DNA from: Fimbriimonadaceae bacterium
GTDB taxonomy: Bacteria > Armatimonadota > Fimbriimonadia > Fimbriimonadales > Fimbriimonadaceae
Direction of reading: 5' to 3'
Assembly (NCBI GenBank): GCA_026129685.1
Contig: JAHCHO010000007.1
Location: 186,001 to 250,000 of the forward strand
Length of the DNA: 64,000 nt
Position numbers and translations under genes: made by a program. The notes beneath the pieces are model-generated. The model did not search any database and had not been told where the DNA came from. It worked only from the letters and a program-made list of their open reading frames with translations. Positions 25,606-48,315 of this stretch are shown here, piece after piece (within the stretch, counting starts at the first letter, position 1; each line of letters starts with the position of its first letter).

Positions 25606-26520
25606 ATGAAAGCCGTTGGCCTCATCGTCGGCGCGGTTGCCCTTGCCGCCGGCATCCAGTCCTTTCAAAGCGCCGGGCCCGCCGTGCCCGAGGGCGTTCG
25701 CAAGCACGTCGAGACGATGCGCGCCGCCAAAACCCTGCGCGCCAGGGTGCTCGTGACCGACGTTTCAGGCGGCAACCAGGAGATCTCCGTCGCCTTTGCG
25801 CGGCCCAATCGGTTCAAGATCGAGCGGGCGGACGGCTTCACCCTATCCGACGGCAAGACCGTCTACGAATACACCGGCGCGACCTCGAGCTACACCGAAC
25901 ACCCCTACGCCCCGGAAGACCTGACGAAAGCCGTTCGCGCGGACGAGTTGTTCGCCTGGACGGTGTTCTTCGAGGCGAACGCCTTGGCCAACGTCAGCGA
26001 TGCGACCGACGGCAAATCGCGCACCCTGAAGGGCATCAAGGTCCAGGAAGTGGCCCTTCGCACGCCAAACCGGGAGCGCACCGCCGGTCTCCTCGTGGAC
26101 GAACAAGGTGTGGCGCGCGGGTTCACGCTCGAAACGCCCAAGAAGAACCTGGTCGCGATCGCGACCGAATTCGAGGTCGGAGGCGACTTGCCGGAGTCGA
26201 CCTTCGCGTTCGTCGCCCCTCCCGGCGCGAAGAAGGTCGAGCCCGCCGCCGTGTCGCCCAAATACGCAGAGGTCCAGGCAATCTTCGACAAAGCGTGTCT
26301 GCCGTGCCACGGCGCCGGGTCGTCGAGCGGCGGGGTGGATCTTTCGAGCTACAACGCGGTCGTCGGGGGTCGGGGGTCGGTCGTGAAAGGCAATCCCGAC
26401 TCCAGCGCGATCGTCCGAGCGATTCGCAGCGGTCGGATGCCCAAGGGCCGTGGCAAGCTGCCCCAGACCGAAGTCGATACGATCGTGAACTGGATCAAGG
26501 CGGGCGCGAACCCCGACTAG
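25606..26520 (+). CDS. Exported LolA/DUF2092-like domain fused to a c-type cytochrome domain
   Basis: A 304-residue protein with a signal peptide (MKAVGLIVGAVALAAG). Residues about 28-205 resemble the LolA-like lipoprotein-carrier fold (VRKHVETMRAAKTLRARVLV ... ISVAFARPNRFKIE ... DGKTVYEYTG). Residues about 218-304 are a cytochrome c-like domain with haem motif CLPCH (Cys231, Cys234, His235) and a probable axial Met278 in GRMPKG, like the planctomycete-type c domains. It is probably periplasmic and either binds redox haem or anchors to a partner. It overlaps the convergent caspase gene by 4 nt. Confidence 0.8.
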   Translation: MKAVGLIVGAVALAAGIQSFQSAGPAVPEGVRKHVETMRAAKTLRARVLVTDVSGGNQEISVAFARPNRFKIERADGFTLSDGKTVYEYTGATSSYTEHPYAPEDLTKAVRADELFAWTVFFEANALANVSDATDGKSRTLKGIKVQEVALRTPNRERTAGLLVDEQGVARGFTLETPKKNLVAIATEFEVGGDLPESTFAFVAPPGAKKVEPAAVSPKYAEVQAIFDKACLPCHGAGSSSGGVDLSSYNAVVGGRGSVVKGNPDSSAIVRAIRSGRMPKGRGKLPQTEVDTIVNWIKAGANPD

Positions 26521-29500
26521 CCAACCGGAAAGTTCACCAATTCGTTCTCCTTGCGCACCATCGGTCGCTGGGTGCCGCCGGAGAGCCGCTCGACCTCGTT
26601 GACGACGTAGGTGCGAAGCTCGGACACGGTGACGACGCCGTCCTTGTTCGCGTCCGCCTGGGCGCGCTTGCCGCCCAGGGCCTGCAGGATCGCTTGCGTG
26701 AAGAACCCGTGGTCGCGTTCCTGCGCCTCCTTGCCGCCCGTCGCCGCCGCGATCACCGAGGATCCGGTGCCGCGTCCCAGGTCGGTGAAGGACTCGAGCA
26801 TCACGCTCAACTCTTCGCTGATGCCGGTGCCGACCGTCGGGTCCAGGTCGGCGGGCGGCAACGGGCCCGTACCGCCCCCCCTCCCTGAAACGGGCGGCGG
26901 AACGTACCGGTCGATCAAGCCGGATTGACACGAGTCGAGAAGGATGAGTTTGCGCCGCGAGGCGACGCCGTCCACCAAACTCTCGATCGCCTCGTAGGAC
27001 ACCGCCGTTCCCTCGAGATCGCTCTTGCGACCGTCGGCGGGGACGAAGTAGTACTGCAGAGACCGGTCCTCCAGTTGGCCGTGTCCGGCAAAGAAGAGGA
27101 TGACCACGTCGTCGGGTCCCGCTTGCTCAAGGAACTTCCGTGCCTGCAGAATGGCGAGCCGGGTTGCTTTGGGTCCTTTCAGGGCCAGAATCCGAACCTC
27201 GTCGTAGGTTCGTTTCGGCGTCGCCGGTTTTGGGGTGGGAACGGGAGCGGGCGCGCGTCGGCCACGGGCACGTTTCGCGGGCGCAGGCTTCGACGGCGCG
27301 ACGGCGGGCGCGATCGTCCCCGTCTTGAGAGCAAGGAGCGCCTTCTCCAGCGACTCCACGTCGCTCAACGGGGCGCGCAACGGACGGTAACCACTGGCCG
27401 GATCGTAGTCCTTCACACCGACGAGCAATGCGAACAACCTGGGTTTTGGGGGGGTCGCGGGAGCATACCGGACGTTCGCGGTCGCCTCGAGCGACATGCC
27501 CAGGTTCGCGTTGCGGACCGCCACCCGTATCTCGTTCGAGCCAACGGAAAGGGGGATCACGATCTCCTTGGCGGCGACGGTGCGGGTCTCCCCGTGCAAC
27601 GGCTTGAGGGCTTGCCCGCGAGTTCCGTAGAGAGGCACGTTGTTGACGAACACGTGCAGGCTCTCCAGGGAGTACCGTGCGTCGGAAAGCCGTACGGTCA
27701 GGCGGAGGACGCCCTGATTGGTCGTCGGTGGCGGCAGAGGCTGGAACACGGGCCGGTCCGGAACCCGGAAGTCGGCGGTGAGCGCGGACTCCGGAACGCC
27801 GAGGAACTCCAACCGCTTCAGGTAAGCGCCGTTGAGAACCCGAATTCGGTCGGCGGGTGCGATGCCGACGTCGCCGAGCACCAGGTCCGGCCGGTTCAGA
27901 CGAAGGTCGAACTGGTCGAACGGGTACAACTCGCCACCCGCCTCGAACCGGAGGGACTTCGCGGCGTCCTTGCTGGCCAAGTAGTGGTTGTCCCGCGTCT
28001 TGGCGAGGTAGCCGTAGTCACCAAAGGTCTGGATTTCGCAGAGCAGGCTGCCCGGCTTCAGGACGGGCCGGCCGGCGGTGGATCGGAAACGCGGGTGGCT
28101 CTTGACGGGCGAACCGTCTCGCGCCGCCTCCGTCGTGTCCCAGAGGCGTAGGTAGCCGTCCGTCCCGACCGTCGCGATCATGTCGGCGGTCGGGTGAATC
28201 GCCACGTCGAGCACGGAGGACCGATGCGCGTACGCGTGCAGGAGCTTCAGCCCTTGCTCGACGTCGAAGCTGTGGAGGTAAACCGTCCTTCGATCCGGAC
28301 TGAAGGCGATCAGACGCTTTCCGTCGGCCGAGAAACGTGGCGACCGGAGGTCGCGCGTCGGAAGCTCGACCGAACCGTTCGTGCGGACGTCGTACACCCG
28401 GACCTTGCCCTGTAACTCGACCGCAAGGCGCGTCCCCTCCGCGTTGAAGGCGGGTGAATAGCCGGGTACTTTTCCCAGTTCCCGGAGCGATCCGGCTTCA
28501 AGTTCGTAGACGGTGACGGTGCCGTTATCCTCGAAGGCGACCACCTCGCGCAGCATCGCAAAGGCCACACTGTCGTCTCGGAAGTCCTCCTCGCGAGTCT
28601 GCTCACCGAGCACTTTCGCCGCGAGGCCGTCGACCAGGCGCACGGTTCCGAATCGCTTGCCGTCCTTGAACCCGCCCACCGAAACCGCGAAATAGCGTCC
28701 GCTGGACGATGCGCGCAGGAACCGGATCGGGGTTACCGGTTCCTGGTAGAACGACTCGGGCACGATCCCTCCGGGCATCCAGATCTCGATCTTGCCGTCG
28801 TACCGTTGCACCAGGAATCGCCCCGCGTCGCCGCTCCACACGACTCGCGAGAGATTCTGCAAAGAGACCTCGGGGTAGGTCTGGCGGCTCGTTCCGTCCT
28901 GAGACCACAGCGTCAGACCACCGAGCGAGCCCCTGCCCAGAAGGTAGCGGATCAAGGGCCGGTTCTTGGACGCCTCATAGGGAAGACAAGGGGGCAGCTC
29001 GATGTTCCGGCCCGCTTGGAACGAGGGCGGCGTCGCCAGGCTGGGGTCCCAGACCCGAAAGCCTTGCTCGCTGACGGTGATCATCTGGCGGCCGCCCTGC
29101 GTGAACTCGACCCGCCGAATCTGACCTACGTCTCCGCGCAAAGATCCGAGACGCGCTCTTGTGCGCCCATCGAGGACGGTCAGCTTGTCCGGCACGGCTT
29201 CGAACGCGCCAAGCCCGACCACGATCTCGCGATCCTCCGGTGCGTAGGCCAAGGCGTTGACCGGCCAGCTGTAACCGGCGAAACCGGTTCGGCGATAGGT
29301 CGCGGGCGCCCTATCCGGCCTCGTCGGGTCCACGAACAGCACCGTTTCGTTCTCCGGGGAAAAGGCAAGTTCGGGCCTTCGGGACGCGAACGCGATCGGG
29401 ACCGGTCGTCCCGGCTGGGGCGGGCGGCCGTCTCTCGTCGCTCGTTTCGACACGAGCTTCACAAACGCCCCGTCGGCAAGTGTGTGGAGCCCGACGTTGC

Positions 29501-30680
29501 CGCGCACGGTCGAGTAGGCGAAGTACTTCGAGTCGCTCGAAACGTCGAGGTTGACGATGTCGTCTCCCACCGGAATCGGTTCCTTGTCAAGGAGGCGGTA
29601 GTCAAACCCGTCTTGCCGATAGAGTAGGGATCGGGCTTCGGCCGTGCCGCCCTCGGGCATGAAGCACAGGAGTTGGGTGCCGTCCCGCGTGAGCACGCAT
29701 CGGACGGGTCGCGGGAAGTTGAGGGCGCCCTTGGGCTTCGCGGGACCGACCGCCTGGCCGACGAAAACCCTCCCTCGCCGGTCGCTCACCACGATCCGGT
29801 CGAGTTCGCCGACGTAGTACGCCGAGAAGACCGGGTCGGGTGTCCGCATCACCGTTTCGATCCGGCCGGTGGCCCGGTCCACCATGAAGACCGTCCGGTC
29901 CCAGTAGATAACGATCCGATTGCCGTCGACGGACCAAGGCCGTTCTGCGAGAAAGCCGGTCGCCGAACGGAGCACCCGCCGCGCGCCCGTGTCCCATACG
30001 TTGACCAACCCGTCCAAATCGCCCGTTGCCACGAACTTGCCGTCGGGCGAGTAGCCGACGGTGCGAATCTCGCCCCGGTGGTCGGCGGTCTGCGCAAGGG
30101 CCGGCATCAGTGCGTCCCGACGGGCAAAAACCTTGATGCCGCCCGATTCGTCGGGCTCCCAGGTCAGGGGCGGATTCGCGCCCCCGACCACGATGTCCAC
30201 CGCGTCGGAGAGGGCCTTGTTCTGGAAGGCCCCGTGTCCGGCACGGACCGTCTCGTCGACCGCCCATTCGAGCTTGCGGGTCTTCCCGTCTCGTTGGTTC
30301 GCCTCGGAAAACAGGCGTTCGAGGGCGGAGCGGACATCCTCGCCCGCCTGGCCCGATACGATCGGTTCGAGGTAACGCAGGATGTAACGCGCACCGTCGA
30401 AATCGAAACCCAACTTGGGATCGCTGCTGCGCAGTACCGCCCGCAGCGCCGCCTGGGAGTCGGACCCCTTGCGAAAGAACCCGCCGCCGAACTCGCCCGC
30501 CACGATCAGGTCCTTGGGAACGACCAGTGGGAAGTCCGTGTACTTGCCGAGCCACTCGAGCGACTCGCGCATGGGCTTGCGCCCCATGTCGACGTCGGTG
30601 AGCATGCCCTTTCCGGGGGACTGGCCCCAGACGGCGCCCGCCGCCAAGACAACGCTCGCAAGGATCGGCCGAAGCGTCAT
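26517..30680 (-). CDS. Exported STN-like / WD40 / caspase-fold protease (C14 family)
   Basis: A 1387-residue protein. A signal peptide (LRPILASVVLAAGAVWG) is followed by two short STN/secretin-like segments (to about residue 190). A long WD40-type beta-propeller region (HRGEIRTVGYSPDGKFVATGDLDGLVNVWD and many variants) runs to about residue 900, then a linker. The caspase p20-like domain starts at about 1079 (LFALLVGVKDYD) with His1200 in FFAGHGQ and Cys1251 in LLDSCQSG, interrupted by a Pro/Ala/Lys-rich insert (about 1119-1158). A perfect EF-hand loop follows (DANKDGVVTVSE, 1343-1354). It lies 2 nt after the FecR gene. Confidence 0.88.
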   Translation of the reverse strand: MTLRPILASVVLAAGAVWGQSPGKGMLTDVDMGRKPMRESLEWLGKYTDFPLVVPKDLIVAGEFGGGFFRKGSDSQAALRAVLRSSDPKLGFDFDGARYILRYLEPIVSGQAGEDVRSALERLFSEANQRDGKTRKLEWAVDETVRAGHGAFQNKALSDAVDIVVGGANPPLTWEPDESGGIKVFARRDALMPALAQTADHRGEIRTVGYSPDGKFVATGDLDGLVNVWDTGARRVLRSATGFLAERPWSVDGNRIVIYWDRTVFMVDRATGRIETVMRTPDPVFSAYYVGELDRIVVSDRRGRVFVGQAVGPAKPKGALNFPRPVRCVLTRDGTQLLCFMPEGGTAEARSLLYRQDGFDYRLLDKEPIPVGDDIVNLDVSSDSKYFAYSTVRGNVGLHTLADGAFVKLVSKRATRDGRPPQPGRPVPIAFASRRPELAFSPENETVLFVDPTRPDRAPATYRRTGFAGYSWPVNALAYAPEDREIVVGLGAFEAVPDKLTVLDGRTRARLGSLRGDVGQIRRVEFTQGGRQMITVSEQGFRVWDPSLATPPSFQAGRNIELPPCLPYEASKNRPLIRYLLGRGSLGGLTLWSQDGTSRQTYPEVSLQNLSRVVWSGDAGRFLVQRYDGKIEIWMPGGIVPESFYQEPVTPIRFLRASSSGRYFAVSVGGFKDGKRFGTVRLVDGLAAKVLGEQTREEDFRDDSVAFAMLREVVAFEDNGTVTVYELEAGSLRELGKVPGYSPAFNAEGTRLAVELQGKVRVYDVRTNGSVELPTRDLRSPRFSADGKRLIAFSPDRRTVYLHSFDVEQGLKLLHAYAHRSSVLDVAIHPTADMIATVGTDGYLRLWDTTEAARDGSPVKSHPRFRSTAGRPVLKPGSLLCEIQTFGDYGYLAKTRDNHYLASKDAAKSLRFEAGGELYPFDQFDLRLNRPDLVLGDVGIAPADRIRVLNGAYLKRLEFLGVPESALTADFRVPDRPVFQPLPPPTTNQGVLRLTVRLSDARYSLESLHVFVNNVPLYGTRGQALKPLHGETRTVAAKEIVIPLSVGSNEIRVAVRNANLGMSLEATANVRYAPATPPKPRLFALLVGVKDYDPASGYRPLRAPLSDVESLEKALLALKTGTIAPAVAPSKPAPAKRARGRRAPAPVPTPKPATPKRTYDEVRILALKGPKATRLAILQARKFLEQAGPDDVVILFFAGHGQLEDRSLQYYFVPADGRKSDLEGTAVSYEAIESLVDGVASRRKLILLDSCQSGLIDRYVPPPVSGRGGGTGPLPPADLDPTVGTGISEELSVMLESFTDLGRGTGSSVIAAATGGKEAQERDHGFFTQAILQALGGKRAQADANKDGVVTVSELRTYVVNEVERLSGGTQRPMVRKENELVNFPVG

Positions 30681-30682
30681 CG

Positions 30683-31603
30683 CTACTCCCCCTCGAACGG
30701 GACGCCCCGTTCGACCAAATTCCGTACCCGCGTCTTCAGGTCGCGGACGTCCGCCGAGTCGGCCATCGCGTCGAGTTCGCGACTGGCTTCCGAGAGGAAA
30801 CCGAAGTACAGGTGCGCTTTGACGCGCACCAGACCCCGAAGCGGTTCGGCCAGTTCGTCCGCGAAGGCGAGTTGGCGACGGTAGTCGTCTTTGGCGTCCG
30901 CGCTGAGCACGGCGAACACCGCCCGTCCCTCGCGACGCCCGATCCCGGGTGCGGTGACGCTGACCGACCACGCGTACAGCCCTTCCGGAAGGTCGGGCAA
31001 ATCGTAGCGGATCGTCCCGAAAGGAAGGCGCCTTGCGACGAATCGGGTCCAGCCCGTCGCGTCCTTGACGCTGGCGACAAGCTCGATCGTGGGCGGGTCT
31101 TTAGGTTCGACTAGTTTGGTCGCATCGATCCCGCACTTCCACTCGAGCGCCGTCGGCGCCTCCCTAACCGCCTCTCGAGGGGTCAACTCAAAGAACCCGT
31201 CGGCCTCGCCCCCGCGATCGATTTTGGCGGCGAAATCCTGCGTGACCGGGCCACGACGCACGATGGGGGCGCCACGGTACTGCTCGAGGACGACGGGCGC
31301 TCGGCCAGTACGTACGCGCAACCCGTCCGCGCCGACATCGTACACGCCGCTCTCCGAAAGGGACACCGTTCGGCGCGAACCGTGCAGGTAGACCGTCACG
31401 ATCGATTTCTTGTCGGTCAGGATCACGTCGTTCGGGAACAGATCGACGAGAACGCGGACCGGCCGCGAGCGTCCGGCGCGCTTGAGGGTCGCGGTCCCTC
31501 CGACTTGGAGGACGTAACCGGGCGAAGACGGGCGCGTGTCCACCGCGAAGTCGTGCGAGGCCGCGTTGCCGACGACGAACAGGGTCAGGATGGTGAGGTT
31601 CAC
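30683..31603 (-). CDS. Exported FecR-domain protein
   Basis: A 306-residue protein with a signal peptide (VNLTILTLFVVGNAAS). The FecR-type segment is YVLQVGGTATLKRAGRSRPVRV followed by LFPNDVILTDKKSIVTVYLHGSRRTVSLSESG. An Ig-like middle and a helical C-terminus follow (DDYRRQLAFADELAEPLRGLV), perhaps TPR-like. The GTG at 31603 overlaps the cyclase stop (GTGA). Here it would be a periplasmic link between the CHASE2 sensor and the caspase protein; this role is inferred from the operon. Confidence 0.82.
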   Translation of the reverse strand: MNLTILTLFVVGNAASHDFAVDTRPSSPGYVLQVGGTATLKRAGRSRPVRVLVDLFPNDVILTDKKSIVTVYLHGSRRTVSLSESGVYDVGADGLRVRTGRAPVVLEQYRGAPIVRRGPVTQDFAAKIDRGGEADGFFELTPREAVREAPTALEWKCGIDATKLVEPKDPPTIELVASVKDATGWTRFVARRLPFGTIRYDLPDLPEGLYAWSVSVTAPGIGRREGRAVFAVLSADAKDDYRRQLAFADELAEPLRGLVRVKAHLYFGFLSEASRELDAMADSADVRDLKTRVRNLVERGVPFEGE

Positions 31604-33525
31604 GATGCTTCCTCCCGTACCGATTCGGCTTCGACGATCCCGTCGTGAGCGAATCGCACTCGGTGCAAAACGATGGGAGAGCGGCCCCGAATCGCGACCG
31701 GACCCAGATGGGCCGCGGGCGGAGCGGGGTCCAACCTCCCGTAAGTCGCGTCGGAGACGAGCAGTTCCGACCGGTAGTCCTGGTTTTTGCCTTCGATGCG
31801 GGCGGCGGTGTTGACGGCGTCCCCGATGACGGTGAAGTCCAGTCGTCCCCCGTGACCGACGAACCCGGCCGCGACGCGCCCGGTGTGGACTCCGCACCCG
31901 ATCCGTACGGACTCGAGGACCACCCGGCCCTCTTTCTCCATCGGAACCACGAGATCCAGGGCACGAACCGACAAAACCGCCCCGATCGCCGCGTCCACCG
32001 CGTCCTGGGCCGGGTTCTTCGAGGCTCCGTCCAGACCGAACAAAGCAAGGAATCCGTCACCCAGGAAGCGGTTGATCACCGCGTTGCGCTCCAAGAACGC
32101 CGGCACGGTGGCCTCGAACACCCGGTTCACGATGTCCATGACCTCGCGGGCGTTCGCGCCGTGGGCGATCGCCGTCGAATCGCGCATGTCCACGAACACG
32201 ATCGTCAACTCGGGCTCGGTCGGCTCCATCGAGATCGGCCCTTCCAGCGAGAGCAGCCGGTCGCGGACCTGGGGCGACATGAACGTCCCGAGTTGGTCCT
32301 CGCGCCTTCGGCGTGCCCACGCCTCGTGCGCCGCCCGTACCCACAACCCCGTCGAGGTTGCGGCGGTCGCCGCCAGCAGGGGACCGGCAAGCGGCAGCGC
32401 CGTGCCCGTCGCCATGAACACGGCTTGGGAACCAAACGCGTACACGGTTGCCGTCGCCACCCCGCCTGCAAGGACGGTGCCTTGTCTCCGGCCGGCGGCA
32501 AAGCCCGCCGCGCCCAATCCGACCAGCAAGGTCGCCAAGAACCCCCCGGCGCCCACGACCCGAGCCAAAGCAGTGCCGCCGAGCAAGGTCGAGACCGCCT
32601 CCGCATGGACCCATACGCCCGGCAGGTTCCGCCCTAACGGAACGCGATGAGCGTCCTTCGCCGCCACTTCCGTCGAGCCGATCAGGACGACCTTGCCCCG
32701 AACCTGGTCGGCCCACTGGGCAGGAGGATCGTCTAGAACTCGGCGCGCGTCGAGGGCGTTGACCCGGCCGCAAAAGTCGATCGCGAAGCGAGCGACCTGG
32801 TCGTCACGGGTTCGGTACCGAGCGAGATTCGCCAGCCCGTCGGCGGACCGTGGATCCAAGCCTCGGTGCCGCGCCGCGAGGAGAGCGGCGAACGATGGCT
32901 CGACCGGCTCGGACTCGACCCCGGTGTCCCTCGCGTACAGATACGCGTCGCGCACGGTACGATCCCGGCTCGGAACAACGTCGACGAATCCGATCGCATC
33001 GTTCTGGAGGCCGATCGAGCGCAATTTGTCGAAGGACGCGATCGGCCCCTCGGCGGTAAAGCGCGCCTCGGCCAGCACGAGTCGGGGTCCCAGAGCCATC
33101 GCCGCCGACGTCAGGTCGGCGTTCGGCGTCGGGCCATGGTCCACCCCCTGCTCTTCGAGCACTTGCGTGAGGAATTCGTCGGTCCGTGACTGGACGATCA
33201 CGTCCAGGCCGATCACGCTTGGACCGGCCGCCGACAGCCGCCCGAGCAACCGGGCGTACCGCGTCCCCCAAAACGCCTGCGGCTCCCACCAGTCGACCGT
33301 CGTGTCGCTCGAAATGGCGACGACGACGACCTCCGGATACGCGGGCCGCTCGCCACGGAGCGCGATTCGAGCGTCGTACAAGACGTCTTCCGGTTCTTCG
33401 AGCAGCGGCGTCGCCGCGAGCAACGCGACCGTGACCGCCAAACCCACCCCGACCGCCGGCGCGGGTAGGGGCCGCCCTTGGCGGGCGGATCGGGATCGGG
33501 GCCAGGGACGGAATCGCAAGTTCAC
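31600..33525 (-). CDS. CHASE2-domain adenylate/guanylate cyclase (class III)
   Basis: A 641-residue membrane receptor. An N-terminal transmembrane helix is followed by a periplasmic CHASE2 domain (EDVLYDARIALRGERP, VVVVAISSDTT, VIGLDVI, HRVPLGRNLPGVWVHAE), three transmembrane helices and a class III cyclase domain from about 439. The metal-binding Asp are 446 (FVDMRDST) and 490 (NRFLGDG); the transition-state residues are in VNTAARIE. The base-reading Lys of INKxxGD is Arg here, so whether it makes cAMP or cGMP is not certain. It starts with GTG at 33525. Confidence 0.92.
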   Translation of the reverse strand: MNLRFRPWPRSRSARQGRPLPAPAVGVGLAVTVALLAATPLLEEPEDVLYDARIALRGERPAYPEVVVVAISSDTTVDWWEPQAFWGTRYARLLGRLSAAGPSVIGLDVIVQSRTDEFLTQVLEEQGVDHGPTPNADLTSAAMALGPRLVLAEARFTAEGPIASFDKLRSIGLQNDAIGFVDVVPSRDRTVRDAYLYARDTGVESEPVEPSFAALLAARHRGLDPRSADGLANLARYRTRDDQVARFAIDFCGRVNALDARRVLDDPPAQWADQVRGKVVLIGSTEVAAKDAHRVPLGRNLPGVWVHAEAVSTLLGGTALARVVGAGGFLATLLVGLGAAGFAAGRRQGTVLAGGVATATVYAFGSQAVFMATGTALPLAGPLLAATAATSTGLWVRAAHEAWARRRREDQLGTFMSPQVRDRLLSLEGPISMEPTEPELTIVFVDMRDSTAIAHGANAREVMDIVNRVFEATVPAFLERNAVINRFLGDGFLALFGLDGASKNPAQDAVDAAIGAVLSVRALDLVVPMEKEGRVVLESVRIGCGVHTGRVAAGFVGHGGRLDFTVIGDAVNTAARIEGKNQDYRSELLVSDATYGRLDPAPPAAHLGPVAIRGRSPIVLHRVRFAHDGIVEAESVREEAS

Positions 33526-33574
33526 GGTCCTCGTTATCGCCGATCCGACTCCCCAAATATGTGATCAAGATCAC
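33526..33574 (-). promoter_or_regulatory. Cyclase-operon promoter with CRP-like palindrome
   Basis: A perfect dyad GTGAT-CAAG-ATCAC at 33561-33574, in context TGTGATCAAGATCACT, close to the CRP consensus TGTGA-N6-TCACA. Between it and the GTG lies GATAAC (minus strand 33538-33533), 7 nt before the start. If transcription starts at the GTG, the dyad is centred about 42 nt upstream, a class II activator position. The promoter is predicted, not shown. Confidence 0.55.
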
Positions 33575-33695
33575 TCAGATCGGGAAGACGGCGAATGAAC
33601 GATTGTAACCGGGTTCGGGCGTCGGACGGCGAACGTTTTCGTACCGAGGCGCACTGTGGTACCGGACCGCCCGCGTCGTGGCAAACTGACCCGCA

Positions 33696-36488
33696 ATGGT
33701 TTCGGCCGTCGTTCTCTTCACCAGCATGATCGCCCCCGCCGCCGCCGGGTCGGCGCGGGAGTTTCTACCGCCGCAGCCTTGGGCGCTTGGGTTTGCCGCG
33801 CCCCCTCGCCTGCCGTTCGTCGGCGACGTGGACGCGGACGGGTACGCGGACCTCATCGTCGTCTACCCGCCGGGCAATGCGATCGTGGACGTAAACCTCA
33901 GCGTGGACGGTCTGAAGACGGGCGGCGGGTTCCAGGGCCTGAACCCCTGGGGGAAGGACTGCCTCGCCGCGGCCGTCGGGGAGTTGGACGCGGCCCCCGG
34001 AACGGACGTCGTCGGTTTGTTCGGCGGGACCGAGGTTCGCCTTGCCGGGGCCTTCAAGGACGGACGATTCACGGACGACCCGAAGTGGGCGACCCTGCCG
34101 AAGCCTCTGCAAAGCGCGGCCATGGCGGTGGTCGGCAAGTCCGTGCTGCTGTTCAACACCCAAACCGGCGATGGCTACAGAATCACGGCCGACGCCCGCA
34201 ACGTCGAGGTCGTCAAAGTGCCGGCGGGCACGGTGTGGATCGGGGACGCCGGCGACACCCTTGCCATGCAGGACGCCAAGGGCCGGGTGTCGCTTCTCGA
34301 CCCGAACACGCTCAAACAGGGCAAAGCGCTTGGCACGATCTCGAAAGCCTCCCGGCCCGCCGCCGGTCCGGGCACGATCGCTTTCGGCGATCGAGTCTGG
34401 ACCCCGCACGGCGAACATGCGCTTCCTCCAAGCGCCCTGCCCAGGGCCGATACCGTGTTCGGCCTGGGAGACGTGGACAAGGACGGCGACCTCGACGTGG
34501 TGGCTTTCCGCTACGGGTCGGAGCACCACACCGCCAACAGCGTCTCGCTCTACCGCGCGAGGACGGAGGGAGAGACCGACCCCGATCATGACGGCCTGAC
34601 GGACGACGACGAGACGAAACTCGGCACCGACCCCCGGAACCCCGACACCGACAACGACGGCCTTCTCGACGGCTGGGAGGTCGGCATCTTCCGCGACTTG
34701 GATCTCAAGTCTCTCGGTTGCGATCCCCGGCGCGTGGACCTCCTCTGCCTCGTCTCACGGTTCGAGAAGGTGGCCGAGAAGCGAGTGCAGGACGAGATGG
34801 CGCGGGTGATCCGATTCTACGCCGACCTCGACGTTCCCAACCCCGACGGGAGCAAGGGCTTCGCCCTTCACCCGATATACCTCGACCCGGTCGGCGAGAA
34901 GGACGCCAACGATGGGTGGCCCGCCAACCGCGCCAAGTTCCGACCGGAAAAGTGGCGAGGCCTGGTCCACTGGATGCAGGTCACCCCGGGAGGCGGCGGT
35001 CAAGCCGACCAATTGGGCGACGGCGGAACCGTCGGCGAAGGTGCGCTCTGGGCGGTGTTCGTCCACGAGTTCGGTCACCAAATGGGCATGGACCACGAGG
35101 GCTTTTGGCCCAACTTCCTATGCCCGATCTACACCAGTTTGATGAACTACGCCTACAGCTATTCTTTCGAGGACGACGGCAATAAGATCCACTACTCGAA
35201 GGGCGAGTTCAAGGATTTCGTCCTGCGGGAAACCGACCTGGACGAGACGATTCCCTTGCCGTACGAGAAGGTGAAGTTCCTAGAGAAGGGACCCTATCGG
35301 TTTCGCCTGAAGGCCAACGGCGAGACCACGCTGATCGATTGGAACTGGAACGGCGTGTTCGGCGAGAAACACATCCGCGCCGACGTCAACTATTCCTACT
35401 CGACCAACGCCGGTCGTCGCGACGACGTGGGCAAGACGCACGGCTCACCCTGGCTGTTCGCGCACGAGAAGCGGGCGTTCGTCCTCTACGGGACCCACGA
35501 CCTGCCCGCCGACCCGAAGGTCGACCCCAGCCTGTCCGTCGATCGTCCCGGACGCCTTCTCCTGCGCCGGCTGAAGCAACCGTTCGCTTGGGACGATCCA
35601 TGGGTGATCGAAGCGGGCGGCGTCACCGGGGACCCCGTCGCCGCGAGCCTGGGCAACCACGTTTGGGCGTTCTACCCAACCGGTCAAGGCGTCGTCCGAC
35701 GGCGCCTCACGGTCTCGAAGGCCGACCTCGCCATGAGCGCACCGGAGGTGGTGTCCTCCGACCCAAGCGTCGTGCCCACGGTCGGGGTCCACGGAGGCTT
35801 GCTCTACCTGTTCCTGTGGAACCCGACGAGCCAAATCGTGACGTACCGAACGATGGCCGCCGACGGTCGGCTCGCCGATCCGCGCCCCCTCGACACGACG
35901 AGTACGAATCCCGTCGGTCTCTGCACCGACACCCTCACCGGCGAGGCGATTATCGGCCTTGCGAAAGACCAGGACGAGAAACGACCCAACCGCTGGCAGG
36001 TTCGGCGCTACCGCGCGTCGTCGGGCGTTCTCCAGTCTTCCGCCCCCGTCGAGTGGATCGAGGGGGAGGCGGGGCAGTCGCGCGGAACCGGGCGTCTCAC
36101 CGTGCTCTTCGACGACTCGAAGGACGGCGGGCCTAACGGACGGATCTACCTGTACGGTCGGGGGATGACCTCTCCCGAGTCGCCGTGGGCCTGCACGTAC
36201 GTTGCCCACCAACTGGCCGACAAGACGGTGAAAGGAGGCTGGCTGGTGAAGCGATTCTACGACGAGTGGACCCAGAGCCGGTCCGCCCCTGCCGCCGCCT
36301 GGTTCGGGGGGGATGTCCTCTGGGCGTACCGGTGGGTGGACGGGGGGCAGGGTCCCACCGACAACAACCTTCATGTCGGCTACCGGGCCCTCGGCATCGA
36401 GTCCGCCCCGATGGGCGACCACGACGATTTGACCTACTTCCGCACCTTCGGCATTCGGCACTCGATCCTCTCGCTCGGGAGGGGTTAG
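33696..36488 (+). CDS. Exported metzincin-like metalloprotease with FG-GAP and thrombospondin type 3 repeats
   Basis: A 930-residue protein with a signal peptide (SAVVLFTSMIAPAAAG). An N-terminal FG-GAP/VCBS beta-propeller (VGDVDADGYADLIVVY, LGDVDKDGDLDVVAF) is followed by calcium-binding thrombospondin type 3 motifs (DPDHDGLTDDDETKLGTDP, NPDTDNDGLLDGWE). Then comes a metalloprotease domain with the metzincin zinc motif HEFGHQMGMDH (His457, His461, His467) and a C-terminal beta-propeller-like part. It is likely extracellular and calcium-dependent. A Met-turn after the zinc motif could be SLMNYAYS. Confidence 0.82.
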   Translation: MVSAVVLFTSMIAPAAAGSAREFLPPQPWALGFAAPPRLPFVGDVDADGYADLIVVYPPGNAIVDVNLSVDGLKTGGGFQGLNPWGKDCLAAAVGELDAAPGTDVVGLFGGTEVRLAGAFKDGRFTDDPKWATLPKPLQSAAMAVVGKSVLLFNTQTGDGYRITADARNVEVVKVPAGTVWIGDAGDTLAMQDAKGRVSLLDPNTLKQGKALGTISKASRPAAGPGTIAFGDRVWTPHGEHALPPSALPRADTVFGLGDVDKDGDLDVVAFRYGSEHHTANSVSLYRARTEGETDPDHDGLTDDDETKLGTDPRNPDTDNDGLLDGWEVGIFRDLDLKSLGCDPRRVDLLCLVSRFEKVAEKRVQDEMARVIRFYADLDVPNPDGSKGFALHPIYLDPVGEKDANDGWPANRAKFRPEKWRGLVHWMQVTPGGGGQADQLGDGGTVGEGALWAVFVHEFGHQMGMDHEGFWPNFLCPIYTSLMNYAYSYSFEDDGNKIHYSKGEFKDFVLRETDLDETIPLPYEKVKFLEKGPYRFRLKANGETTLIDWNWNGVFGEKHIRADVNYSYSTNAGRRDDVGKTHGSPWLFAHEKRAFVLYGTHDLPADPKVDPSLSVDRPGRLLLRRLKQPFAWDDPWVIEAGGVTGDPVAASLGNHVWAFYPTGQGVVRRRLTVSKADLAMSAPEVVSSDPSVVPTVGVHGGLLYLFLWNPTSQIVTYRTMAADGRLADPRPLDTTSTNPVGLCTDTLTGEAIIGLAKDQDEKRPNRWQVRRYRASSGVLQSSAPVEWIEGEAGQSRGTGRLTVLFDDSKDGGPNGRIYLYGRGMTSPESPWACTYVAHQLADKTVKGGWLVKRFYDEWTQSRSAPAAAWFGGDVLWAYRWVDGGQGPTDNNLHVGYRALGIESAPMGDHDDLTYFRTFGIRHSILSLGRG

Positions 36489-47122: not shown

Positions 47123-47614
47123 ATGCGGCGCCTTGCGGTGTACCCCGGCTCCTTCGACCCCCCCACTCTCGGCCATCTGGACGTCGTGGAGCGGGCCGCG
47201 CGGCTGTTCGACGAGGTGATCGTCGCGGTCGGCGTGAACCGCTCCAAGGCGTCGTTCATGACCGTCGACGATCGGCAGGCGAGTCTGCGCGAAGCGTGCG
47301 CCCACCTTGATAACGTCCAAGTGGCCTCGTTCGAGGGCCTGCTTATCGAATACGCGACGCGGGCCGGGGCCACCGCCATCGTCCGGGGTCTGCGCGCGAC
47401 CGCCGACTTCGAATACGAGTTCCAGATGGCGATGGTCAACCGTCGCTTGCGGCCCGAGGTCGAGACGGTGTTCTTCATGACCCACTGGGAGAAGAGCTAC
47501 GTGAGCAGTTCGATCGTGCGGGAAGTGGCGCTTTTGGGCGGCGACTACTCGGGGCTGGTGCCGGACGCGGTCGGCGAGCGGATCGCGGCGATCGTTCGGG
47601 CGCGCACGTCCTAG
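47123..47614 (+). CDS. coaD: Phosphopantetheine adenylyltransferase
   Basis: A 163-residue enzyme of coenzyme A synthesis that adenylates 4'-phosphopantetheine. The nucleotidyltransferase motif YPGSFDPPTLGHLDVVERA, VGVNRSKASFMTVDDR, IVRGLRATADFEYEFQMAMVNRRL and the SSSIVREVALLGGD motif are all intact. TATCAT (47111-47116) lies 6 nt before the ATG; GAAGG is also adjacent, too close for a normal ribosome site. It is convergent with the Crp/Fnr gene. Confidence 0.95.
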   Translation: MRRLAVYPGSFDPPTLGHLDVVERAARLFDEVIVAVGVNRSKASFMTVDDRQASLREACAHLDNVQVASFEGLLIEYATRAGATAIVRGLRATADFEYEFQMAMVNRRLRPEVETVFFMTHWEKSYVSSSIVREVALLGGDYSGLVPDAVGERIAAIVRARTS

Positions 47615-48315
47615 GCGCCCAGGAACCCGAGGAGTCGCTCGGGGTCGCGAATTGTGATCTGTCGGTAGGTCGAGCCCAGGATTCCCATCTTCGTCCAGCG
47701 GCTCGTCACGCGAATCGTCGTCTCGACGGTGGTGCCGGCGAGTTCCGCGATATCCTGCCGACTCAGGGGGATGGTCAGGCGCACGCCGACATCGGTCTCG
47801 ACCCCGTACGACTCGGCCAGAACCAGAAGGACCGCCGCGACCCGCTGCTCCACCTTCCCCGACGCCATTCGGGCCATCATGTCGATCGCCCCGCGCAGAC
47901 GTAGGGTGGTCCGGCGCACGAGTTGGTCCTTGAGGGGGGCGTTCTGCCCGTAGATTGCGAGGAAAGCCGTCTTCGGAACGCGCAAGAAGGCGGTCGGGCA
48001 GACGGCGCGCGCCGAAAGCGGGCAGCCGGTGCCCTCGATCGCGCCGAGAAGGCCGAACACCTGGCCCGGGCCCATAATCTCGGCGGTCAGTTCTTGGCCG
48101 GAGGCCGAGGTCCGCACGATCTTCACGAAGCCGGTGCCGACGATGCCGAAGAAGCCCACCTCCGACCCGTCCATCCAGATCACGGCGCCACGGTCGGCCC
48201 GATCCACGCTACTGACGGCGGCGAGCGCCTCGACCTGCTCGTCGCTCAGCGCGTTCAGGAGCGAACTGGACCGCAGAATCGCGCGCACCGACGGCGCCTC
48301 GGGGGGATCGTGCAT
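47611..48315 (-). CDS. Crp/Fnr family transcriptional regulator
   Basis: A 234-residue regulator with an N-terminal cyclic-nucleotide-binding fold (VIWMDGSEVGFFGIVGTGFVKI, MGPGQVFGLLGAIEGTG) and a C-terminal winged helix (IPLSRQDIAELAGTTVETTIRVTSRW). No N-terminal four-Cys cluster as in Fnr, so the ligand may be cAMP, haem or none. It sits next to the cytochrome/nitrite reductase genes, so regulation of them is plausible. A TACAAT promoter (minus strand 48341-48336) lies 20 nt before the start. Confidence 0.9.
   Translation of the reverse strand: MHDPPEAPSVRAILRSSSLLNALSDEQVEALAAVSSVDRADRGAVIWMDGSEVGFFGIVGTGFVKIVRTSASGQELTAEIMGPGQVFGLLGAIEGTGCPLSARAVCPTAFLRVPKTAFLAIYGQNAPLKDQLVRRTTLRLRGAIDMMARMASGKVEQRVAAVLLVLAESYGVETDVGVRLTIPLSRQDIAELAGTTVETTIRVTSRWTKMGILGSTYRQITIRDPERLLGFLGA

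Follow-up and report, generated by a model that had tools for sequence, protein, structure and literature searches.

A CHASE2 receptor cyclase operon with a FecR-like protein and a probably exported caspase-superfamily peptidase in a Fimbriimonadaceae bacterium

The stretch of 64,000 nucleotides analysed here, hereafter the window, originates from a Fimbriimonadaceae bacterium and carries a three-gene operon for a CHASE2 receptor cyclase, a FecR-like protein and a caspase-superfamily protein with WD40 repeats. The operon was interpreted as a CHASE2-cyclase/FecR-type signalling unit with an additional, probably exported peptidase that may act as an envelope input, a reading to which we gave an even chance. 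In bacteria, homologues of caspases tend to be treated as cytoplasmic enzymes of death or defence, and for most of them no function is known. The present findings suggest a place for such proteases outside the cytoplasm, in envelope sensing, and not among the enzymes of cell death. If the linkage is real, many caspase homologues would gain a testable job in envelope signalling, and CHASE2, a widespread sensor domain with largely unknown ligands, would gain a candidate mechanism. The features of the region were:

26517..30680, minus strand: WD40-caspase protein, 1387 aa, ATG start 2 nt past the middle gene, predicted export
30683..31603, minus strand: middle gene, 306 aa, putative envelope partner; its GTG start and the CHASE2 stop overlap as GTGA
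31600..33525, minus strand: CHASE2 receptor nucleotide cyclase, 641 aa, GTG start, from Pfam and hydropathy
33526..33695, no strand: intergenic region between the operon and a divergent gene, likely site of the operon promoter judging from gene positions

The three genes were contiguous on the minus strand from 33525 to 26517, in the order receptor, middle gene and WD40-caspase gene. Position, strand and contiguity agreed with the preliminary description, which had regarded the genes as one coupled unit. The GTGA overlap it reported was present at 31600-31603, where the GTG start of the middle gene lies over the stop of the CHASE2 gene, and so was the 2-nt gap between the TAG of the middle gene and the ATG of the WD40-caspase gene at 30680. 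With overlapping and abutting genes, the coupled unit was correctly recognised. Each of the three start codons was preceded by a purine-rich sequence resembling a ribosome-binding site. A divergent gene begins at 33696 and a convergent gene ends at 26520, and the transcription unit is therefore confined to these three genes. A consensus search of 33526..33695 gave no sigma-70-like site, such a consensus being uninformative in this organism. The divergent gene (33696-36488), with which the operon has the 170-bp intergenic region in common, encodes a probably exported protein of 930 aa with FG-GAP and TSP3 repeats. This protein also contains a stretch resembling matrixin-type (M10) metallopeptidases, with a score below the cut-off.

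The receptor was assigned as a CHASE2 cyclase, as first described, by Pfam matches to CHASE2 at residues 31-333 (E 4.2e-34) and to Guanylate_cyc, the class III cyclase domain, at residues 438-620 (E 4.4e-14). Hydropathy analysis placed an N-terminal transmembrane segment at about 24-42 and a hydrophobic stretch or transmembrane segment at 319-337, with CHASE2 in between. The cyclase domain comprised D446, D490, N572 and R576, with T565 at the base-selecting site, and the usual purine-contacting substrate lysine was replaced by R486. In line with the residue roles known for this class of cyclases, we take D446 and D490 to be the metal-binding aspartates, N572 and R576 the transition-state residues, T565 the base-selecting residue and R486 the occupant of the lysine site. 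In a sequence search of solved structures, the closest relatives were bacterial adenylate cyclases, with CyaB first at 1.3e-17. Because the catalytic residues are kept and the nearest solved relatives are adenylate cyclases, an active cyclase with cAMP as the probable product is a fair reading, and we infer that cAMP is more likely than cGMP.

The middle protein showed a short N-terminal hydrophobic stretch, a FecR-like beta part, an Ig-like part and C-terminal TPR-like helices. The FecR-like neighbours of CHASE2 genes in relatives had this layout of hydrophobic start, beta part, Ig-like part and C-terminal helices in common, and the middle protein aligned with them. In a leave-one-out test, a profile built from eight proteins encoded next to CHASE2, that of the window excluded, matched the middle protein at E 1.9e-14 among the 277 ORFs of the window, and the second-best ORF scored just 1.2. 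A profile built from the N-termini alone of FecR-TPR-CHAT proteins also matched it, at E 2.7e-6. By this sequence comparison, the middle protein is a homologue of the N-terminus in FecR-TPR-CHAT fusions beside other CHASE2 cyclases. The label FecR, as used in the preliminary description, is weak when taken alone: the homology to divergent FecR-like CHASE2 neighbours speaks for it, but Pfam FecR (PF04773) did not match the protein at E<=1. Profile comparison of the FecR-like and canonical FecR families gave a weak relation with E 0.06, and AlphaFold modelling of the middle protein with one relative reached a pLDDT of 32. Features of the FecIRA type, namely a cytoplasmic anti-sigma N-terminus and an adjacent ECF sigma factor gene, were absent; the protein begins with its hydrophobic stretch and the operon holds three genes. 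No basic residue was found in the N-terminus, a point against export. Export of the middle protein is supported by the hydrophobic N-terminus and by hydropathy, which gave no other transmembrane segment.

The WD40-caspase protein comprised a signal-peptide-like sequence at 1-20, one or more undefined domains at 21-190, WD40 repeats at about 195-851, an Ig-like part at about 985-1075 and Peptidase_C14 at 1083-1377, the latter interrupted by an insert, about 40 residues long and rich in Pro and Ala. Pfam matches were 1e-16 for WD40 and 5.7e-11 for Peptidase_C14, with 43 bits against a curated cut-off of 21.4. The NCBIfam model caspase_w_EACC1 matched at 3.8e-20, yet below its cut-off. The His/Cys dyad, H1200 and C1251, was intact. 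Its conservation, on which the caspase reading had been made to depend, extended to all 17 aligned C14 rows, consisting of the window protein and 16 others. The protein is thus a member of the C14 family and a predicted peptidase. A search of solved structures with the C14 part returned no relative. It is probably exported, judging from a hydrophobic N-terminus and the lack of any other transmembrane segment in hydropathy. For both the middle and the last protein, the export put forward in the preliminary description is supported by these N-termini as a hydropathy-based prediction. The two proposed N-terminal STN domains were not confirmed. No Pfam match was obtained, a genome search with PF07660 did not return this gene and a home-made STN profile scored no better than with shuffled sequences. 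An AlphaFold model made for this question had a pLDDT of 38 and was unusable, and the likeness of the N-terminus to STN was seen by eye only.

A full-length orthologue of the 1387-aa protein was not present among 60 relatives, including two genomes of the same genus. In these two genomes, CHASE2 was paired instead with a single protein that combines FecR and a beta-propeller. The best relative in the 60 nearby genomes, at locus L049, had 34% identity over the C14 part and no CHASE2 alongside. L049 (1-15230), from a genome of the same order, comprises several consecutive caspase-domain genes. In the C14 tree, which was poorly resolved, the CHASE2-linked C14 domains did not form one group. This pattern would fit a history in which receptors of a single type acquired differing peptidases on several occasions.

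CHASE2 was present in about a quarter of 113 genomes of the class to which the window belongs. A caspase-superfamily gene, C14 or CHAT, was located within 3 kb (<=3 kb) of 10 of the 35 CHASE2 loci, distributed over seven genera. The six CHAT and four C14 genes compare with 0.42 expected from gene density, with a Poisson P of 3e-11 that treats the loci as independent; four of the CHAT loci, in G016, G099 and G004, are close kin, and independence is overstated accordingly. In other classes of the same phylum, surveyed at 60 CHASE2 loci with home-made profiles at E<1e-4, a FecR gene was nearby at 38 and CHAT or C14 at none. The CHASE2-FecR pair is therefore general in the phylum, with the peptidase added to it in some lineages.

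The arrangement of the linked genes varied within the class. L058 and L065, from two genomes, encoded FecR-TPR-CHAT as one chain upstream of the CHASE2-cyclase, and L053 and L055 had it split over two ORFs. The order at L076 was CHAT, CHASE2 and FecR-like, and L054 showed a CHASE2-FecR pair with a convergent CHAT gene. At L070, CHASE2 and FecR-like genes were accompanied by a gene for a TPR protein, truncated where the contig ends. The C14 proteins near CHASE2 came in four builds, represented by the window, L078, L081 and L083. A FecR-C14 fusion was considered in G061 and rejected, as the N-terminal likeness was not significant (E 0.095), and the protein was counted just as a CHASE2-adjacent C14 protein. 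The splits in G004 and at one G016 locus lie at differing places (L053 11598-11620 and L055 4292-4308) and may be frameshifts, sequencing errors or true splits. The CHASE2 proteins of L078 (7338-12642) and L081 (4449-8399), with 477 and 490 aa, were without a recognised cyclase or kinase domain. Each adjoins a protein of 304-313 aa of unknown family, with a C14 protein close by. L068 and L069 were near-identical CHASE2 regions in two genera (G097 and G099), indicating either cross-contamination of bins or recent transfer.

Similar arrangements were present in other phyla. A scan of named genomes covered 80 loci with a three-row CHASE2 alignment as query. Among these loci, Pyrinomonadaceae bacterium MAG19_C2-C3 of the Acidobacteriota (L127) had genes for a CHASE2-cyclase, a DUF928 protein and TPR-CHAT in line on one strand, in the same order as in the window. 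The family profile of the middle protein also reached this DUF928 protein. A genome from the class of MAG19_C2-C3 (L239) encoded an exported-looking WD40-C14 protein of 1159 aa divergently from a CHASE2-cyclase, 198 bp apart. The Oscillatoriales genome of L109 contributed two loci: CHAT, DUF928 and CHASE2 were consecutive at a contig end at L252, and L249 encoded a CHAT-CHASE2 fusion. Most CHASE2-linked peptidases had hydrophobic, signal-peptide-like N-termini in hydropathy. On sequence evidence, the pairing of a CHASE2 receptor with a similar protease exists in at least two further phyla. The adjacent set of CHASE2, FecR or DUF928 and a clan-CD peptidase was present in the window operon, L127, L252, G016, G099 and G004. 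The system suspected in the preliminary description hence recurs as C14 or CHAT by CHASE2 in seven genera, in Acidobacteriota and in a cyanobacterium, but the exact WD40/C14 protein was limited to this genome.

This distribution bears on the question of whether the WD40-caspase gene merely chances to follow a working CHASE2-FecR pair and has only the promoter in common with it. Such a loose operon would account for the missing orthologue in the 60 relatives, same genus included, and for the position of the nearest caspase relative (L049, with its 34% in the C14 part) in a caspase cluster without CHASE2. For the closest CHASE2-FecR pair, in G011, no gene followed immediately on the same strand, but a CHAT gene was located about 2 kb away. 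The enrichment of C14 and CHAT near CHASE2 in the class, repeated in two other phyla, makes a chance neighbourhood unlikely.

The proposed input mechanism starts from the observed operon layout, the domains, the intact catalytic residues and the recurrent C14/CHAT linkage. From these we infer that two of the proteins are exported, which way the signal runs, that proteolysis is the switch and which nucleotide is made. The middle protein and the WD40-caspase protein would act at the outer side of the inner membrane, where both would detect an envelope condition and alter the state of the CHASE2 sensor domain. The most likely switch would be a cut by the caspase domain in the CHASE2 ectodomain or the FecR-like partner, with docking without cutting as the alternative. 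Proteolysis as the switch is a narrower claim, to which we gave about half the probability of the input model. The freed cytoplasmic cyclase would then produce the cyclic nucleotide, to be read by one or more CRP-type regulators of the cell. Physical contact among receptor, FecR-like part and peptidase is suggested by the chains in which CHAT is joined to the FecR-like part or to CHASE2. In Sinorhizobium meliloti, CyaD1 without CHASE2 produced cAMP constitutively, and the ectodomain thus restrains the cyclase (PMC5498481). Cutting or displacing the ectodomain would for this reason be a ready on-switch. A generalisation, that C14 and CHAT peptidases outside the inner membrane are CHASE2 input proteases that turn on cyclic nucleotide signalling by cutting the ectodomain or a FecR, Ig or DUF928 partner, is tentative and rather improbable as it stands. 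If true, bacteria of at least three phyla would possess a protease-activated receptor system, one that the literature searched does not describe as such.

Against an input role, CHASE2-FecR pairs manage without a peptidase, with CHAT or C14 at 0 of the 60 CHASE2 loci sampled in other classes of the phylum. The restriction of the exact WD40-C14 partner to this genome, and the lack of a single group of linked C14 domains in the poorly resolved tree, also count against it. The main counter-evidence comes from S. meliloti, where the CHASE2 adenylate cyclase gene cyaD1 is located near a FecR-domain gene (SMc02177), a gene for a periplasmic protein (SMc02178) and the Crp-type regulator gene clr (PMC5498481). 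Both neighbours, smc02177 and smc02178, are targets of Clr, which reads cAMP, and are dispensable for signal perception (PMC5498481). Transferred to the window, the receptor cyclase would sense unaided, and cAMP with a CRP-type regulator would switch on the operon. The middle and caspase proteins would then be regulated envelope effectors in protein quality control, remodelling or processing of surface proteins. We regard this as possible, with a minority share of our confidence. The genome encodes eight cNMP-binding proteins in total that could read the signal, in line with such an output and also with the input model, and one of them is a CRP-type regulator within the window. The FecR-like-CHAT fusions in relatives and the CHAT-CHASE2 fusion in a cyanobacterium, on the other hand, point to a physical linkage beyond a purely regulatory one. 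The S. meliloti set resembles the window in its CHASE2 cyclase near a FecR-domain gene, FecR-like in the window, but lacks a peptidase, and its neighbours are regulated targets. No CRP gene was present inside the window operon, and the sole cNMP-binding gene of the window was 14 kb away. This gene (47611-48315) encodes a CRP-type regulator with cNMP-binding and HTH_Crp domains, which may be what reads the nucleotide made by the cyclase.

A death or defence module, as raised in the preliminary description, would have the cyclase product or envelope damage trigger the caspase and kill the cell. The caspase domain and PADLOC matches to the Pycsar cyclase and to 'caspase' models would suit it, but these matches are generic and span just the common cyclase or C14 domain. 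The class III cyclase domain is what the operon has in common with Pycsar (PADLOC PycC match 7e-19). The window cyclase is instead a membrane receptor, and a Pycsar effector search of the operon proteins gave no cNMP-sensing effector. In Pfam, none of the three operon proteins had a cyclic-nucleotide-binding domain, and no gasdermin-like or TIR gene was present in the operon. The neighbours examined were not defence genes. As the cyclase product is cytoplasmic, neither the middle protein nor the peptidase, predicted outside the cytoplasm, would be its direct target. With a cytoplasmic product and no cNMP-binding gene in the operon, the peptidase fits an upstream input, or an envelope product under regulation, better than it fits an effector of death, and the death or defence reading is very unlikely.

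Among known systems, the combination of CHASE2 and FecR is already described (PMC5498481; PMC5192318). New is the probably exported caspase-superfamily peptidase joined to CHASE2-receptor/FecR signalling, which does not amount to a new category. The Burkholderia BiofilmReg operon consists of a response regulator, a LysM-FecR protein, a CHASE2 histidine kinase and DUF4136 (PMC5192318). It resembles the window in having a FecR-domain envelope protein, FecR-like in the window, and a CHASE2 receptor in one operon, but differs in the kinase output, the LysM domain and the lack of a caspase. In Magnetospirillum, MtxA, with a structure available as PDB 4Z29, is encoded beside a CHASE2 adenylate cyclase (PMC4439547). 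MtxA is exported, has about 310 aa and combines Ig-like and TPR parts, the same layout as in the middle protein of the window. The likeness is one of layout alone: MtxA was not among the matches when solved structures were searched by sequence, and its operon has no peptidase. In cyanobacteria, too, CHASE2 and DUF928 are known in association with caspase-superfamily or WD40 proteins, as a CHASE2-metacaspase fusion in Trichodesmium (PMC2853523, PMC3501461) and as a cluster of WD40, CHASE2 and DUF928 genes in Nostoc punctiforme (PMC5587647). The caspase of the Trichodesmium fusion is, however, predicted to be cytoplasmic, and the cyanobacterial cases have no cyclase and have not been presented as a system. 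Like the window protein, prokaryotic WD40-metacaspases (orthocaspases) combine WD40 repeats with a C14 domain that carries the His/Cys dyad. Unlike the usual members, the window protein is probably exported, and its gene shares an operon with that of a CHASE2 receptor cyclase. The parts seen of a survey of metacaspase operons made no mention of CHASE2 neighbours or cyclases. In the literature searched, with subscription journals mostly outside it, neither FecR with CHAT nor DUF928 with CHAT was found together.

A further recurrent pair was observed in the family. Genes for a small (319-339 aa) and a large (1320-1380 aa) C14 protein, separated by about 3-4 kb, were present at G011:C2, G097:C56, G084:C58, G104:C3 and G023:C1, possibly representing a second conserved caspase system. 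The genome of the window held similar small and large C14 genes on separate contigs (C14:392041 and C13:453157).
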